64,000 nt of DNA, from the NCBI RefSeq assembly GCF_004322855.1, contig NZ_CP036402.1:3906001-3970000 (forward strand). Reading direction: 5' to 3'. The notes beneath the pieces were generated by a model. That model did no database searches. It was not told where the DNA came from and was given only the letters and a program-made list of their open reading frames with translations. Each line of letters begins with the position of its first letter. The stretch's first letter is position 1. The stretch comes from Egibacter rhizosphaerae. Its GTDB lineage: Bacteria > Actinomycetota > Nitriliruptoria > Euzebyales > Egibacteraceae. A program made the translations under genes and the position numbers. Shown one piece after another: positions 1 to 9,326 of the stretch.

Positions 1-2043
1 GACCTCGCCGCCCAGCGCTCGCACCAGCGCGCGCACGATGAAGAGGCCGAGACCGGCACCGCTGGTGCGCATCCGCAGCGGGTCCTCGAGGCGCTCGAAC
101 CGCTCGAACACGCGATCGCGGTCCTCGAGCGGCACTCCCGGGCCCTCGTCGATCACGCGGATCTCCACGTGCTCGTCGCGTTCGATCACGTGCACGGAGA
201 TCGTCCCCCCGGTGGGGCTGAACTTGCCCGCGTTGTCGAGCAGGTTGGCGAGGACCTGCTGCAGTCGGAGCGCGTCGGTCGTGCCGAGGAGGGACTCCGG
301 TCCCTCGTACGCGACGACGTGCTCGGGGAGCGACTCCTGGGCCCGGTCGACCTCCCCGCGCACGACCTGCACGAGGTCGGCCGTCGCCGGCACGACCCGC
401 GGTGGGTCGCTGCCCTGCGAGGAGAGTTGCGCAACGAGGATGAGGTCCTCGACGAGGCGCCCCAGGTGATCGGCGCGGTTCTCGATCTGGTCGAGCAGCC
501 GCTGCCGCTGGTGCTGGTCCAGGCGGTCGGCGCGTTGGGAGAGGAGCTGCGCGCTCGCCTTGATGGGCGTCAGCGGGGTGCGCAGCTCGTGGCTGACGAT
601 CGCGAGCATGTCGTCCTTGGCCTGAGCGACGCGGCGCTCCTCGGTCACGTCGTGCACGACCGCGACCGACAATCGGCCGAGCCCGGCGTCGTCGACGCTC
701 GCGATCGCGACACGCCAGATCCGCCCGTCGTCGGTGTTGGTGTTGGGGCGGATGACGTCGTGCACTCCCGGATCCTGCCAGGGGCCGGGCCCCAGGACGT
801 CGTGGACCTGTTGGTGCCGGCCGTCGGTGGTCCCCGTGAGGCTCGCCATCGCGTCGTTCCACAGCCGGACGATCCCGTCGTCGTCGAGCACGAGGATCCC
901 GTCGGCGGTCCCGCCAACGACCGCCTCGAGGGTCGCGCGTTCCTGCTCGAGCGCCATCGAGGCCGCGGCGCGGTCCAGGTGCACGCGTGCCGAGCGGGCG
1001 AACCGCTCCAGCCAGGGCAGCAGCTCGTCAGCGGTGGCCGCGCCTTCGCCCCACGCGACGAGCACGCCGGGACCGAAGGGCACCGCGAGGGCGCGCTCCT
1101 CGCCGAGGAGGCCGAAGTCCGCCAGCGTGCCCCGCTGGGGATCGGCCTCCCCGTCGACAGGGCACGAGCCACTGCCCTCCGGTGCGCCGGCCCGCCAGCG
1201 ACCGTCGTGCCACAGCGCCGCCGACAGGCCGAGCGTCGTGCGCACCCCCTCGCTGATGAGGCGGCTCACCTCGACCGGGTCGCGAGCCTCGGCGAGATTG
1301 CGTTCCACCTCGACGAGGAGATCAGATCGGTTCCGCAGCCGTTGCTCGGAGGTCTGCGCTCGGCTGGCCAGGTGGAGGAGGATGAGCGGCGCGGCCATCG
1401 CGGCGAGCGCGAACGGCGCGTTGACCCAGAGCACCAGGACGAGGACGGCGAACGCCCCGTTGCAGGCCGGGACGAGCGCGCTGGTGGGTGCGAGCTGCTG
1501 CGCGAGACGGAGCGGGTTGCGCTGGGTCACGAACCCCGTGATCAGCGCGATGAGGACGCTGTTCGCGACGATGAACAGGGCCACCGCCAGCGCGAAGCCG
1601 AGGACCGTTCGCGAGTCGAGCCGCAGCGGGTCGTCGGCGATCGAGAACAGCGTGATCGCGGCCAGGCTCGCGCAGACGGTGTACTGCGCGCAGTTGAACA
1701 GGACCTTGATCGGCTCCGTCCGCTCGAGGAGCTGGGCGATGAGGATGCCGAGGAGCGCGCCCAGCGCCACGTTGCCCGGGGCGGTGAACGCGAGTGCCGC
1801 GAACACCGCGGTGTCCGCGAGCGCGAAGCGGATCGTGTTGTCGTTGCGACTGTCGATGTCGAGACCGAACCGCTCGCCCAGGACCATCGAGGCCGCGATG
1901 GCCACGACCGGTACCGGCGACATCGCGGCCGGGGCCAGGGCGATCGCGGCCGCGCAGAGCGCGACCGCGGCGGCGGTGACCAGCCAGATGAGGCGCTGCG
2001 CTGAGCGTGGTAGCTCCCGGAGCGCCTCACGGATGCCGGTCAC
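1..2043 (-). CDS. Membrane sensor histidine kinase, 3' end cut by window edge
   Basis: The minus strand stays open from a GTG at 2043 to the window edge (681 codons, no stop). The first ~230 residues are strongly hydrophobic with several membrane segments. A GAF-like stretch follows (about 240-370), then a PAS-like domain (about 380-480, with GILVLDDDGIVRLWN). The HisKA box SHELRTPLTP has the phospho-acceptor His near residue 485. The HATPase N box (LLDNAGKFSP), G1 (DEGPGVP) and G2 (GLGLFIV) are all present, so the catalytic core is nearly complete and only the extreme C terminus is missing. It should autophosphorylate on His in response to an unknown signal; no response regulator is visible. 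The start lies 7 nt after the stop of the upstream protease gene, so the two are probably co-transcribed. An earlier start inside the protease gene cannot be excluded. Confidence 0.88.
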   Translation of the reverse strand, partial: MTGIREALRELPRSAQRLIWLVTAAAVALCAAAIALAPAAMSPVPVVAIAASMVLGERFGLDIDSRNDNTIRFALADTAVFAALAFTAPGNVALGALLGILIAQLLERTEPIKVLFNCAQYTVCASLAAITLFSIADDPLRLDSRTVLGFALAVALFIVANSVLIALITGFVTQRNPLRLAQQLAPTSALVPACNGAFAVLVLVLWVNAPFALAAMAAPLILLHLASRAQTSEQRLRNRSDLLVEVERNLAEARDPVEVSRLISEGVRTTLGLSAALWHDGRWRAGAPEGSGSCPVDGEADPQRGTLADFGLLGEERALAVPFGPGVLVAWGEGAATADELLPWLERFARSARVHLDRAAASMALEQERATLEAVVGGTADGILVLDDDGIVRLWNDAMASLTGTTDGRHQQVHDVLGPGPWQDPGVHDVIRPNTNTDDGRIWRVAIASVDDAGLGRLSVAVVHDVTEERRVAQAKDDMLAIVSHELRTPLTPIKASAQLLSQRADRLDQHQRQRLLDQIENRADHLGRLVEDLILVAQLSSQGSDPPRVVPATADLVQVVRGEVDRAQESLPEHVVAYEGPESLLGTTDALRLQQVLANLLDNAGKFSPTGGTISVHVIERDEHVEIRVIDEGPGVPLEDRDRVFERFERLEDPLRMRTSGAGLGLFIVRALVRALGGEV

Positions 2044-2050
2044 GCCATGC

Positions 2051-4081
2051 TCACTCGTCGACGATGAGGTTCCAGGAATCGGCGCGCCAGCTCAGGATAT
2101 CCCAATCGTCGCTCCGCCAGCTCAGGATCTCGGTCTCGAGTTCCCTCCAGCTGAGGATGTCCCAGTCCTCACTGCGCCAGCTGAGGATGTCCCAGTCGTC
2201 GCCGCGCCAGCTGAGGATGTCCCAGGCGTCGCTGTAGCGCAGCTGCGCCCAGTCGTCGGCGGTCCAGACGCTCGCGTGCCAGTCGGCCGCGGTCCAGACG
2301 CCGCCCTGCCAGTCCTCGGCTCGCCAGCTCAGGATGTCCCAGGTCACGGCGGGGTGCCGCCACTCGGGGGGGTCGTCCCAGCGCGCCGCGGCCCAACCGT
2401 CGGCCTTCCAGCCTCCGTCGCTCCACTCGGCGGGTTCCCACTGGGCGGTCGCCGGCATCGGCAGGAGCCCCAGGGCCCGGCGGACCGCGCGGTCGCGGAC
2501 CTCGCCGGCCCGGCCCCGGGCCTGGTCGCGGGCCTCGTCGGCACGGTCGCGCGCCTCGTTGGCGCGGTCCCTGGCCTGCTCGCGGGCCTGGTCGGCGCGG
2601 TCCTGACCGTCCGTGCGGGCTTGGTCGGCCCGGTCGCGGGCATGGTCGACCCCGTTGTGCCCGGCGGCGTTGCCGTGCCCGTGGTCGCCCTGCTGCCCGG
2701 GCGGGCCGGGCCGATCGGGCGGCCCCGGAAGGTCCGGTGGCCCGGGCGGGTCCGGGAGGTTCGGGGGTCCGGGCAGCGGCTCCTGCAGCTCCTCGGGGCG
2801 CTCGCCCTCGATGCCGTCGACGGCGGCGAGGACCCCGGGGGCGTCGACGATCCGCTGCCCGTCGCTCTCGTTGCTGCCGTCCAGCAGCGCCTCGGTGAGC
2901 TCCAGCCCGTCGAGCCCGGGGTTCTCCGCGGAGGCGAGGGCCGCGGTCCCGGCGACCAGCGCGGTCGAGATCGAGGTGCCGCTGCCTCGCAGCAGCCCTT
3001 GCTCCAGGCGCGCGATGCCGCCGTCGTTGTCTTCCTCCTCCGCCTGATTCCGCGCGTTCACGCCGAGGATCGACTCCGGGTCGTGATGGCTGATCACCTC
3101 GACGCCGGGGGCGTAGATCCGGGGGGCCTCGTCTCCCACGCGGTTGTGTCCGCTCCCGGAGAACTCCTCCCCGTCGGAGGCGCCGACCGCGAGCGTGCCG
3201 GGGCTCGTCGCCGGCGAGGAGAGATTGTCCGGGCCGTCGTTCCCCGACGCCGTGACGAGCAGGACCCCGTTGGCGCCGAGGCGCTGGGTCGCGATGTCGA
3301 GCAGCTGCCCGGCGGCGTTGTCCGGGTCCACGCCGAGGGCCAGCGATCCCACGCGGATCCCCAGGTCACGGCCGGGGCCGTGCAACCACTCGAGGGCGGC
3401 GAGGACCGTTCCGAGGTCGGTGTCGCCATCCTGGTCGCCGACCTTCAGGGACAGGATCCCCGTGTCCGGCGCGATGCCGGGCATCGAGTTCCCGCTCGCC
3501 GCGATGAGCGACGCCATGAAGGTGCCGTGCCCGTAGCCGTCGCCGCCGCCGCTGTCGGTGAAATCGACCTCGCCCGCGATCGATCCCTCCAGGGCCTCGA
3601 TGTCGGCCACGCCGGTGTCGATCAGGGCCACCAGCCCGTCCCCGCCGGTCTGCGTGTCCCAGGCTTCGGTCGCCCCGATGGTCTCGAGGGCCTCGTGAGG
3701 GCCTTCCAGACCGGTGGTGTGCGTGGTCGCGCCCTCGCTGGAGCTCGTCTCGTCACTGTCGGGGGCGACGTACTCGCCGCCCGAGGGATCGTCCGCGGTC
3801 TGCCACGACAGGGGTGTGTCGGCGGCCACGCCACCCTCGGGGCGCTCGGAACTGCGGATCAGGAGCGCGTCGGCGACGAGGAGCGGGGTCACGACCTCGG
3901 CATCGCCAGGAAGGTCCGCGCTCGCGGGCACGATCCATTCGGTCGCGCCGGCGTCGTGGGGTCCTGCTCCGCCCGCGTGCGCCGGGGCGCCGACCGGAAG
4001 GGTCAGCGCGATCAGCGCAGCGAGGGCGACGAGGCCGGCGAGCACCCTCCGACCGGTGGATGGGGCGTGAGTCCCTCGCAT
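2051..4081 (-). CDS. Secreted S8 (subtilisin) serine protease with Trp-rich C-terminal repeats
   Basis: 676 aa. Residues 1-37 form an export signal (RR, hydrophobic core, APAHA cleavage-like end). The S8 catalytic triad is visible: Asp155 in LIDTG, His185 in GHGTFM, Ser370 in GSGTSIS, with oxyanion Asn281 in TASGND. After the protease domain come a Pro/Gly-rich linker (about 425-470), an Arg/Asp/Ala-rich probable coiled coil with repeats such as DRADQAR (about 475-540), and a 129-residue Trp-rich tail (548-676). The tail has six copies of an ILSWR core, mostly as WDILSWR, spaced 9-10 residues apart near the end. The mature enzyme should act outside the membrane; the tail may bind the envelope or other copies (inference). 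The ATG at 4081 is preceded by GAGGTG. The downstream histidine kinase starts 7 nt after the stop. Confidence 0.93.
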   Translation of the reverse strand: MRGTHAPSTGRRVLAGLVALAALIALTLPVGAPAHAGGAGPHDAGATEWIVPASADLPGDAEVVTPLLVADALLIRSSERPEGGVAADTPLSWQTADDPSGGEYVAPDSDETSSSEGATTHTTGLEGPHEALETIGATEAWDTQTGGDGLVALIDTGVADIEALEGSIAGEVDFTDSGGGDGYGHGTFMASLIAASGNSMPGIAPDTGILSLKVGDQDGDTDLGTVLAALEWLHGPGRDLGIRVGSLALGVDPDNAAGQLLDIATQRLGANGVLLVTASGNDGPDNLSSPATSPGTLAVGASDGEEFSGSGHNRVGDEAPRIYAPGVEVISHHDPESILGVNARNQAEEEDNDGGIARLEQGLLRGSGTSISTALVAGTAALASAENPGLDGLELTEALLDGSNESDGQRIVDAPGVLAAVDGIEGERPEELQEPLPGPPNLPDPPGPPDLPGPPDRPGPPGQQGDHGHGNAAGHNGVDHARDRADQARTDGQDRADQAREQARDRANEARDRADEARDQARGRAGEVRDRAVRRALGLLPMPATAQWEPAEWSDGGWKADGWAAARWDDPPEWRHPAVTWDILSWRAEDWQGGVWTAADWHASVWTADDWAQLRYSDAWDILSWRGDDWDILSWRSEDWDILSWRELETEILSWRSDDWDILSWRADSWNLIVDE

Positions 4082-4443: not shown

Positions 4444-5316
4444 ATGGAGTCGGGCATCGGCGAGACGTTGCGCAGCGCCCGTGAGCGGTCCGGAGTCACG
4501 CTCGCGGACGCTGCGGCCGAGACCCGCATCCGGGAGACCCATCTCAGCGCACTCGAACGCGAGGAGTTCGACAACCTCGGCGGTGAGGTCTACGTCAAGG
4601 GGTTCCTCCGCAGCTATGCCCGGTTCCTCGGCATCGACCCCCAGCCCCTCGTCGAGGCCTACCGGCAGCAGTACGCCGCGCCGGCGCCGATCGAGGAACT
4701 GAGCCACGAGCCGGTCGAGTCGCCTCCGCAGGCTCGTCGTCCCCTGGCGGCACTCGTCGTGGCCGTCGCGATCCTCCTCGTCGGCGGTCTGGCGCTGATC
4801 AGCCTCTTCGCGCCCGATGACGAGGAAACCGCCGACGCTCCCGTGCCCGACCCGGTCGAGGACGACGAGGACGCGGTCGCCGGCAACGGCGAGGACGAGG
4901 GGAACGACGAGGACGAGGACGACGACGAGGACGAGGACGACGACGAGGACGAGGACCAGGCGAACGACGACGAAGACGGCGATGACGAGGAGAACGAGGA
5001 GGGGAACGACGACGAGGAGGAGGAGGAGGAGGACGACGAGCCCGGCCCCTCCGAGGAGATCGTGCTCGGGTTCGCCATCAACGGCGGGCAGTCCTGGGTG
5101 CGCATCGTCGTGGACGGCGAGAACGTCGAGGAGGGCACCCTGTCCGAGGGCTTCTCCGAGACCTACCGCGGCGACGAGGTCGTCATGCGCATCGGCAACC
5201 CCGGCGCGGTCCAACTGGAGCTCAACGGCGAGGACCTGGGGGAGGTCGGCGAGCCCGGGATGCCGATCGACGTGACGTGCTCGACCGATCTCGCGGACTG
5301 CGAGGTGAGCGCCTGA
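4444..5316 (+). CDS. rodZ: RodZ-like membrane-anchored helix-turn-helix protein
   Basis: 290 aa. Residues 1-75 match the RodZ/HTH_25 cytoplasmic domain (IGETLRSARERSGVTLADAA... VKGFLRSYARFLGID). One membrane segment spans about 100-123. A very acidic linker made almost only of Asp/Glu/Asn (about 125-200) is followed by a C-terminal DUF4115-like beta domain (204-288). RodZ links MreB-type cytoskeleton to cell-wall elongation; the external domain would face the wall. The position before cinA and recA matches many actinobacteria. ATG 4444 follows AGGAAGGGTGTCCCG, a usable Shine-Dalgarno. The acidic linker comes from a GA(C/G)GAC-type DNA microsatellite and may vary in length between strains. Confidence 0.88.
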   Translation: MESGIGETLRSARERSGVTLADAAAETRIRETHLSALEREEFDNLGGEVYVKGFLRSYARFLGIDPQPLVEAYRQQYAAPAPIEELSHEPVESPPQARRPLAALVVAVAILLVGGLALISLFAPDDEETADAPVPDPVEDDEDAVAGNGEDEGNDEDEDDDEDEDDDEDEDQANDDEDGDDEENEEGNDDEEEEEEDDEPGPSEEIVLGFAINGGQSWVRIVVDGENVEEGTLSEGFSETYRGDEVVMRIGNPGAVQLELNGEDLGEVGEPGMPIDVTCSTDLADCEVSA

Positions 5317-7554: not shown

Positions 7555-8769
7555 GTGGAGCGCGACAAAGCCCTCGATATGGCCATCGGCCAGATCGAAA
7601 AGCAGTACGGCAAGGGCGCGATCATGCGCATGGGCGAGGAAGCCAAGGTCCAGGTGGCCTCCATCCCCACGGGCGCGCTGAGCCTCGATCTCGCGCTCGG
7701 CATCGGCGGAATCCCGCGAGGCCGCGTCACGGAGATCTACGGACCCGAGAGCAGCGGGAAGACCACCGTCGCGCTGCACATCGTGGCCGAGGCGCAGCAG
7801 GCCGGCGGGATCGCCGCCTTCATCGACGCCGAGCACGCGCTCGATCCCAAGTACGCCCGAGCACTCGGGGTCGACGTGGAGGCTCTGCTGGTGAGCCAGC
7901 CGGACACCGGGGAGCAGGCCCTCGAGATCGCGGACATGCTCGTCCGCTCGGGGGCGGTCGACGTCGTCGTCGTCGACTCGGTCGCCGCTCTCACCCCTCG
8001 TGCCGAGATCGAGGGTGAGATGGGCGACAGCCACGTCGGGTTGCAGGCCCGTCTCATGAGCCAGGCCTTGCGCAAGCTCGCCGGCACGCTGCAGAAGTCG
8101 AGCACCGCCGCGGTCTTCATCAACCAGATCCGCGAGAAGGTGGGGGTCATGTTCGGGAGTCCCGAGACGACCCCGGGCGGCCGTGCGCTCAAGTTCTATT
8201 CCTCGGTGCGGCTCGACGTCCGGCGCATCGAGTCGTTGAAGGACGGCAACGACTTCGTGGGCAACCGCATCCGCGTCAAGGTCGCGAAGAACAAGGTCTC
8301 CGCGCCGTTCCGCCAGGCCGAGTTCGACATCCTCTTCGGTGAGGGGATCTCCAAGGAGGGCGCCATCATCGACGTGGGGGTCGACAACGGGATCATCAAG
8401 AAGGCGGGCGCCTGGTACACCTACGACGGCGAGCAACTCGGGCAGGGCCGCGAGAACGCCCGCAAGTTCCTGAAGGAGCACACCGACGTCGCAGCCGAGA
8501 TCACCAAGAAGGTCACCGAACATCTCGGGCTCGTGCCCACCGACGTGACCGGGGGTGAGGCGAGCGGCGACGTCGAGGGATCCGCTGGTGGCGTCGAGTC
8601 CGCTGAGTCCACCGAGAGCGGTACGGCCGGGGGCGATTCGCAAGCCGAGGGATCCACCAAGGGCCCCAAGGGGGGCAAGGGCACGAAGGCCAGCAGGACC
8701 CAGAAGGCAGATCCACCCGGCGACGCCGAGGTCGACGCGGACGGCAGCCCATCGCTCATCAACGAGTAG
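7555..8769 (+). CDS. recA: Recombinase RecA
   Basis: 404 aa. It has Walker [10 protein letters not shown], the loop with [21 protein letters not shown] and [21 protein letters not shown], all diagnostic of RecA. The GTG start at 7555 has AGAAGGAG 6-13 nt upstream. No intein is present, unlike RecA of some actinobacteria. After residue ~330 the tail is long and low-complexity (Gly/Ser/Glu, then Lys-rich, then acidic). It forms the strand-exchange filament and is the LexA coprotease. SOS control is shown by the box at 7403-7418. recX follows 8 nt after the stop. Confidence 0.98.
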
Positions 8770-8777
8770 ACCCGGCA

Positions 8778-9326
8778 GTGAACGACCCGACCACCGCCTC
8801 TCGACCCGACGTGGCCTCGGGCTCGACCCCCGAGACCGGTACCGCGCCCGACCAGGTCGGGGACGCCGTGGCATTCGTGCTCCGCAGCACACGCCAGCGA
8901 CCCCAGACGGAGGCCGAGCTGCGGGACAAGCTCGCGGAACGCGGCGTCGCATCGGAAGTCGTCCAGGAGGCCCTGGCCCAGGCCCGTTCGCTCGGCGCGA
9001 CCGATGACCGTGCCTTCGCGCGGGCCTGGGTCCGGGACCGCGGCCAGGGCCGCGGGTACGGCGCCTTGCGGCTGCGTCAGGAGTTGCTGCGCCGCCGCGT
9101 GCCCGACCATCTCGTCGACGAGGCCCTCGCGACGCTGGAGGATCGGGACGAGGAATCCGTGGCCGAGGATCTCGCGCGCGAGCGTGCTGCGCGCTTCGAG
9201 GCTCGGATCGAGCCCGACCGAGCCGCGCGCCGACTCGCGGGGTTCCTGCAGCGGCGCGGGTACCCGCCCGCGCTGGCGCAGCGGGTCGCCATCCGAGTCA
9301 GTGGCCTGGACCGGGACTGGGACTGA
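8778..9326 (+). CDS. recX: Regulatory protein RecX
   Basis: 182 aa. It contains the three-helix RecX repeats (AVAFVLRSTRQRPQTEAELRDKL; GATDDRAFARAWVRDR; GALRLRQELLRRRV). It binds and destabilises RecA filaments, limiting recombination. The GTG start is 8 nt after recA, so it is almost certainly co-transcribed with recA and SOS-induced. The first ~25 residues are Thr/Ser/Pro-rich and not part of the fold. Confidence 0.94.
   Translation: MNDPTTASRPDVASGSTPETGTAPDQVGDAVAFVLRSTRQRPQTEAELRDKLAERGVASEVVQEALAQARSLGATDDRAFARAWVRDRGQGRGYGALRLRQELLRRRVPDHLVDEALATLEDRDEESVAEDLARERAARFEARIEPDRAARRLAGFLQRRGYPPALAQRVAIRVSGLDRDWD

Follow-up and report, generated by a model that had tools for sequence, protein, structure and literature searches.

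A subtilase with a tryptophan-pentad tail recurs beside a MASE9-like membrane sensor of exchangeable output

In Egibacter rhizosphaerae, a gene for an apparently exported protease with a tryptophan-rich tail directly precedes a gene for a membrane histidine kinase. What is this tail, and which part of the kinase, if any, belongs with the protease? In this study, we analysed a window of 64,000 nucleotides (contig NZ_CP036402.1, positions 3,906,001 to 3,970,000) together with loci from other genomes, mainly of Actinomycetota. The features of the locus are collected in Table 1.

Table 1. Features of the protease-kinase locus; positions are counted from the first letter of the window.
Feature	Position	Strand	Basis
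Subtilase (S8 family), 676 aa, with Trp-pentad tail	2051..4081	-	PF00082 and Foldseek of the AF2 model
Probable signal peptide, residues 1-36 (..GAPAHA/GG)	3974..4081	-	Inspection of the translation
Subtilase catalytic domain, residues 150-403; D155, H185, N281, S370	2873..3634	-	Pfam and sequence
Long charged helix (coiled-coil-like spacer), residues 477-536	2474..2653	-	AF2 model
Trp-pentad tail, residues 548-676	2054..2440	-	Sequence; 23 Trp, six ILSWR, local 10-aa super-period
Protease-kinase reading-frame gap, 7 bp	2044..2050	-	Sequence
Sensor histidine kinase, 681 of 725 aa inside the window (whole ORF L002:11869-14043)	1..2043	-	PAS, HisKA, HATPase_c
MASE9-like membrane domain of the kinase, residues 14-260, 8 predicted helices	1264..2004	-	Profiles, AF2, loop charges

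The preliminary description of this DNA named a subtilisin tightly linked to a membrane histidine kinase, and both parts of that statement hold. PF00082 (Peptidase_S8) scores 101.9 bits against a cut-off of 21.8, and a Foldseek search with the AF2 model returned subtilisins (best E 2.4e-22). The Asp/His/Ser triad and the oxyanion Asn are all present. In an alignment of 99 tailed relatives, gaps set aside, the catalytic letters are intact throughout (D in 93 of 93, H in 95 of 95, S in 98 of 98), and the oxyanion Asn motif was recovered by regular expression in 84 of 98. The best NCBIfam model of the S8 domain is mycosin (TIGR03921), the subtilase of type VII secretion. However, its 106.8 bits lie below the curated cut-off of 278.75, and no type VII secretion gene was found among the 8 neighbouring ORFs scanned. 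The kinase begins with GTG 7 bp past the protease stop and runs beyond the window; its full ORF carries HisKA (53.3 bits) and HATPase_c (97.3 bits), both above their cut-offs, and a PAS domain. The gap leaves no intergenic room for a kinase promoter, and a promoter may lie inside the protease gene. No response regulator gene adjoins: the three ORFs after the kinase are a CoA transferase, a transglycosylase SLT and one with no match, and the upstream neighbour is a RodZ-like protein (HTH_25, RodZ_C; window 4444-5316, plus strand) whose spacer holds an extreme run of Asp/Glu residues. In the genome, which consists of one 4.64-Mb contig, a single-sequence search with the protease returned only the protease itself, and an S8 profile search returned four S8 genes. 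In addition, the membrane-domain profiles found a second MASE9-like domain besides that of the protease-linked kinase (two matches).

The tail had been described as six ILSWR copies and about 20 Trp residues within the 129 C-terminal residues, behind a coiled coil. The six copies are present in the 129 residues from W548 to the C-terminus; the packing of Trp was correctly noted, with an actual count of 23; and the AF2 model does place a long charged helix before the tail, at fair confidence from about residue 491 (ten-residue mean pLDDT of 38 at 481-490, then 63-85), with a Pro-rich linker between this helix and the catalytic domain. A Trp at every fifth position describes the repeat better than ILSWR does: the window protease has 18 W-x4-W pairs, and none of 2000 shuffles of its own tail has more than 10. 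ILSWR is only the window lineage's version of a wider Trp-every-fifth tail, whose units across the census include DVARW, QTVRW, AAVRW, RGVNW, AGIRW, TGNSW, SGQAW and others. Over 97 tails, 83% of the 1603 Trp-to-Trp steps are exactly five, the second residue after Trp is Gly in 52%, the fourth is Ser or Thr in 48%, and 59 tails end exactly one residue past the last Trp. Unit identity is 0.50 within one tail compared with 0.18 between tails; the Trp period is conserved and the unit is not. Unit autocorrelation (78 of 92 tails) gave super-periods of 10 aa in the window lineage, 15 aa at L057 and 20 aa at L065 and L068. These periods of two, three and four pentads in different lineages led us to reject a single fixed solenoid; therefore, no single coil is implied for the tail. 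For this tail, the preliminary description had considered a role as surface anchor, aggregation module or inhibitory propeptide; AF2 gives the window tail no confident structure (pLDDT below 50 at residues 544-649 and 655-676).

No Pfam model recognised the Trp tail in the window protein. Neither PF00805, which we take to be the accession of the pentapeptide repeat proteins, nor W_rich_C (PF07483) was listed for the window protease up to E 1, in a search whose HMMER filters may suppress such repeats. Against membership in either family stands the super-period, which varies and is not fixed at 20 aa. W_rich_C is named with subtilisins in a legend of PMC2605481.

How widely the tail occurs, and beside what, was determined by a census. 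In the window genome and 60 relatives, a protease match was found in 32 of 61 genomes, and 29 loci were fetched in addition to that of the window; a Trp-rich-tailed S8 was present in 23 of them and in one more, L010. An S8 profile was then built from the catalytic domains of 22 tailed S8 proteins, tails left out, and searched against 396 Actinomycetota genomes, with no more than about five candidates scored per genome. At E 1e-20 or better, 270 of the 396 genomes matched among those candidates; 49 genomes, by hand count, had matches down to about 1e-70. The census sample comprised 40 further stretches from this 49-genome group, 40 lower-ranked controls (a selection of the list) and the earlier loci. 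A tailed S8 was defined as having at least three W-x4-W pairs, which yielded 98 genes after one duplicate locus was dropped. The tailed subfamily was found in 18 family codes of Actinomycetota and in Chloroflexota. A tally by DNA pattern, seven Trp codons spaced 15 bases apart, was discarded: its hits fell in 82 of 396 genomes, and most were noise caused by 15-bp tandem repeats read in another frame. The eight-Trp pattern gave at least 119 stretches and at least 11 loci with a clear tailed S8. The preliminary description had considered that the tail might sit on unrelated proteins without a partner; none did so among the clear cases. A few non-S8 Trp runs in coding-looking frames, such as L104, L142 and L143, were among the matches listed in the eight-Trp scan.

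The tailed subtilases are mostly paired with a membrane domain resembling MASE9 (PF20972), which was searched for with two profiles, A3 and A4, built from protease-linked sensors. In a census gathered partly with tailed queries or Trp patterns, the domain starts within 1 kb downstream on the same strand for 80 of 96 assessable tailed S8 genes, 79 of these within 450 bp; two of the 98 were cut by a contig end and lie outside the 96. The corresponding count for tail-less S8 genes is 0 of 47 (Fisher 2.4e-24, for sequences related by descent). With the S8-profile loci alone, the counts are 29 of 36 tailed and 0 of 38 tail-less. Ten further tailed genes have the domain elsewhere in the locus. A tailed S8 is the first of two tandem S8 genes at L236, L244, L041 and L069; the sensor gene comes first at L266 (before two S8 genes) and L268 and is divergent at L267; an opposite-strand gene intervenes at L060; and L059 looks frameshifted. 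For the remaining six of the 96 (L202, L257, L049, L071, L033 and L120), no MASE9-like domain was found in the fetched stretch, which at L120 covers only 914 bp downstream. Another kind of kinase lies upstream at L033 and L120. Among 55 tail-less S8 genes, 42 have no domain, 8 are cut by a contig end and 5 lie near a MASE9-like domain; four of these five are beside a tailed gene's pair, and the fifth, at L258, looks like a frameshifted tailed gene. A narrower count, which accepted only histidine kinase and GGDEF-EAL partners and at least four W-x4-W pairs, divided 97 tailed S8 genes into 71 with an immediate partner, 8 with a near one, 8 cut and 10 without. We abandoned this partner definition because several partnerless loci had SpoIIE (L256) or HD-GYP (L145, L149) outputs or a reversed gene order.

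At L266 (2952-5570, plus strand) and L268 (7641-10301, minus strand), the S8 genes that follow the sensor, one or two in number, have weak tails of 3-4 W-x4-W pairs, which may be degenerating or a different form.

The preliminary description regarded a recurring protease-kinase pair as possible support for a functional unit. A protease-sensor unit does recur, but the kinase accounts for under half of the partners (36 of 81), and the part that stays is the membrane domain. Pfam showed half of the tested partners to be GGDEF-EAL proteins, and a kinase-specific pairing was therefore rejected: all 10 tested partners of 808-943 aa carry GGDEF-EAL, seven of them with a GAF model also listed, and 9 of the 10 other tested partners are kinases. 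The tenth (L067) gave only a weak MASE9 match; its ORF of 473 aa (7691-9109, minus strand) is MASE9-like and lies beside a tailed S8, and no output domain was recognised in it. HD-GYP-type HD domains are found at L145 and L149, both of Chloroflexota, and at L271, and the partner at L256 has SpoIIE with an ATPase domain. For 81 S8 genes with the domain downstream, a count that leaves out short S8 fragments such as L149, the outputs are 36 histidine kinases, 36 GGDEF-EAL, 2 HD-GYP, 1 SpoIIE and 6 to which no output was assigned. Nevertheless, the N-terminal profiles of the kinase-type and GGDEF-EAL-type partners match each other over 258 columns (probability 100, E 1.5e-47). The MASE9 model itself scores 33.0 and 34.3 bits on the Chloroflexota partners (cut-off 24.3) and 19.8 to 21.6 bits, below the cut-off, on the window kinase, and matches at E 0.1 or better in 12 of 31 kinase-type and 2 of 30 GGDEF-EAL-type members. 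Judged by these profiles, the constant partner of the tailed protease is a MASE9-like membrane domain, not a kinase.

The membrane domain occurs more widely than the tailed protease: at E 1e-8, it was found in 178 of 396 genomes, compared with about 49 of 396 (hand count) for the protease. Of 20 sensor loci chosen for having no listed tailed S8 alongside, 16 have at least 2 kb upstream and no S8 anywhere in the fetched stretch, and 4 are cut by a contig end. The 16 protease-free sensors are scattered among the linked ones on the domain tree, with at least 11 changes; therefore, a sensor can do without an adjacent protease. The dependence is, as gene neighbourhoods indicate, one-sided: the protease would depend on the sensor, and not the sensor on an adjacent protease. 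A comparison of linked with unlinked membrane domains for a contact site gave no clear position (best JS 0.43; 20 unlinked rows, 4 of them cut by contig ends).

On a quick S8 tree of 140 tips, from which nine truncated or frameshifted loci were left out, the tail changes once; the label changes 5 times when truncated or frameshifted ORFs count as tail-less. Because the tail has a single origin on this tree, the pairing counts and the Fisher values are not independent trials. Across the 75 tips for which output kinds were compared on the S8 tree, at least 11 switches are needed. Between histidine kinase and GGDEF-EAL there are at least 9 changes on the S8 tree and at least 5 on the membrane-domain tree, and, given this lower count, some of the former may reflect tree error or partner exchange. 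Across 79 pairs, distances between S8 domains are correlated with those between membrane domains (r 0.627), a value reached in 0 of 1000 permutations (maximum 0.110). Part of this correlation is due to common descent. Within the 13 genomes that have at least two pairs, 80 non-independent ordered comparisons were made, and in 69 of them the cognate sensor fits its protease better than the other sensor from that genome.

AF2 models of ten membrane-domain sequences reach pLDDT values of mostly 70-90 up to residue 270. Searched against solved structures, residues 38-212 of the model have the S-components of ECF transporters (RibU, FolT, ThiT and others) as their best fold matches: the first 21 entries are all ECF-type, including 4m5b and 4m58, which we presume to be ECF-type components, with Z from 10.6 to 14.3 (the latter over 162 residues) and the next entry at 8.6. 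The advised level for helical bundles, Z of at least 13, is reached in 8 of the 21 rows. Foldseek gave only a weak best match to the model (E 2.6e-2), and profile A3 had 0 matches among solved chains up to E 1, so no sequence similarity to S-components was found. Lys and Arg number 2.0 to 3.0 per loop in the model loops b, d and f and 0.03-0.42 in loops a, c, e and g, for both partner kinds, and the predicted outer loops a, c, e and g are only 2-8 residues long. This pattern suggests a domain of eight helices with both termini inside and almost nothing outside and, according to the positive-inside rule, a fold inverted in orientation relative to the S-components. Unlike the latter, the predicted domain also has two extra helices and a signalling output.

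Protease and membrane domain very probably form a functional pair. As to how, we give roughly an even chance to the Trp-tailed subtilase being a dedicated extracytoplasmic subunit of a modular one-piece membrane sensor, which would relay its state to the attached output. At the core of this explanation are a sensor that lacks an outer domain and a neighbouring, probably exported protein whose evolution tracks that of the sensor. In this sensor, the MASE9-like domain, which has hardly any predicted extracellular part, would be fused to an interchangeable cytoplasmic output. The protease would be exported and held at the membrane by its Trp tail, which would touch the membrane domain on its outer face. 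The condition of the protease or of the tail, whether substrate engagement, self-cleavage or release, would then be signalled inward to the attached kinase, c-di-GMP enzyme or phosphatase.

Operons that combine a protease and a regulator are common, and the tight same-strand gene order, together with the frequent sensors without a protease, would also suit a sensor that detects something else, such as envelope or secretion stress or a nutrient, with the protease as an effector in its operon and the tail as an anchor that makes no contact with the sensor. However, the membrane domain stays while the output type changes repeatedly. An output swapped while the input is kept is evidence against the sensor as a mere transcriptional regulator of the protease, for which the output would be kept. 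Moreover, outputs of the HD-GYP, GGDEF-EAL and SpoIIE kinds do not act as gene-specific regulators, and the tail-less subtilases have no such neighbours (0 of 47). We consider this alternative rather unlikely.

Control might also run from inside to outside, by analogy with LapD, a c-di-GMP receptor that controls the external cysteine protease LapG: the cytoplasmic or membrane state of the sensor would switch the protease on or off, and the tail would be a tether. The pairing of c-di-GMP-type proteins with an external protease, in about half of the pairs, resembles that system, and the pocket side of the S-component-like fold, as we assume it to lie, would face inward by the predicted topology. 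However, the protease here is a subtilase, no action on a protease outside the cell is expected from the kinases that make up 36 of the 81 partners, and the GGDEF and EAL domains have scores far above their cut-offs, which would also count against this analogy. We regard such control as improbable.

The two remaining readings are less probable still. Trp-rich repeats suit interfaces, and a tail that keeps its Trp period while its units and super-periods (10, 15 or 20 aa) differ by lineage could serve the protease alone as a wall, membrane or aggregation module, its pairing with the sensor an old linkage with no functional contact; against this stand distances that correlate also between paralogous pairs within one genome and a pairing that survives reversed or divergent order (L266, L267, L268). 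It is equally doubtful that the tail stores a self-encoded peptide signal, as in the tandem yeast alpha-factor cut by Kex2, the subtilase cutting behind Trp to yield lineage-private, Trp-ended pentapeptides bound by the S-component-like domain, so that two neighbouring genes would encode the enzyme, the signal precursor and the receptor: the constant Trp, the alikeness of units within a tail and the tail end one residue past the last Trp agree with this, but many tails are mixed, the putative pocket faces inward by predicted topology, and many sensors have no protease.

Exported accessory proteins acting together with membrane sensors are already known, and in three-component sensing such a protein is read by the sensor, as in LuxP-LuxQ and TorT-TorS. 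The present pair, which we propose as a unit, resembles these systems in having the gene of an exported protein beside that of a membrane sensor. However, the place of the accessory protein is taken here by a subtilase that retains its catalytic residues and carries a repeat tail, and the sensor has hardly any predicted extracellular part and an output exchanged among four kinds. Our search of the open-licence literature returned no description of the Trp-pentad tail, of a subtilase-sensor pairing or of the four outputs on one domain, and no paper on MASE9. The repeat tail defines a subtilase subfamily. Many MASE-type membrane-embedded sensors have no known stimulus, and a passage of PMC8846402 lists MASE1 among them. 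A recurring extracellular partner that is kept through repeated output exchange is therefore a testable input for this orphan class of sensors. Should the protease prove to be the input, a single interface would link proteolysis outside the cell to phosphorylation, c-di-GMP and phosphatase pathways. The pairing, in many little-studied bacteria, points to an undescribed way of reporting outside events.

Three further observations concern individual loci. In genome G236, a tailed S8 has no adjacent sensor (L257) and a MASE9-like kinase without an S8 lies on another contig (L313), possibly a split pair. A GTGSLEAARG-like motif, absent from the window protein, recurs between the S8 domain and the Trp tail at L226, L229, L166, L202 and others. 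In genome G029, three pairs of a tailed S8 and a GGDEF-EAL protein stand in tandem (L064:7461-17148, minus strand), and their tail units differ.
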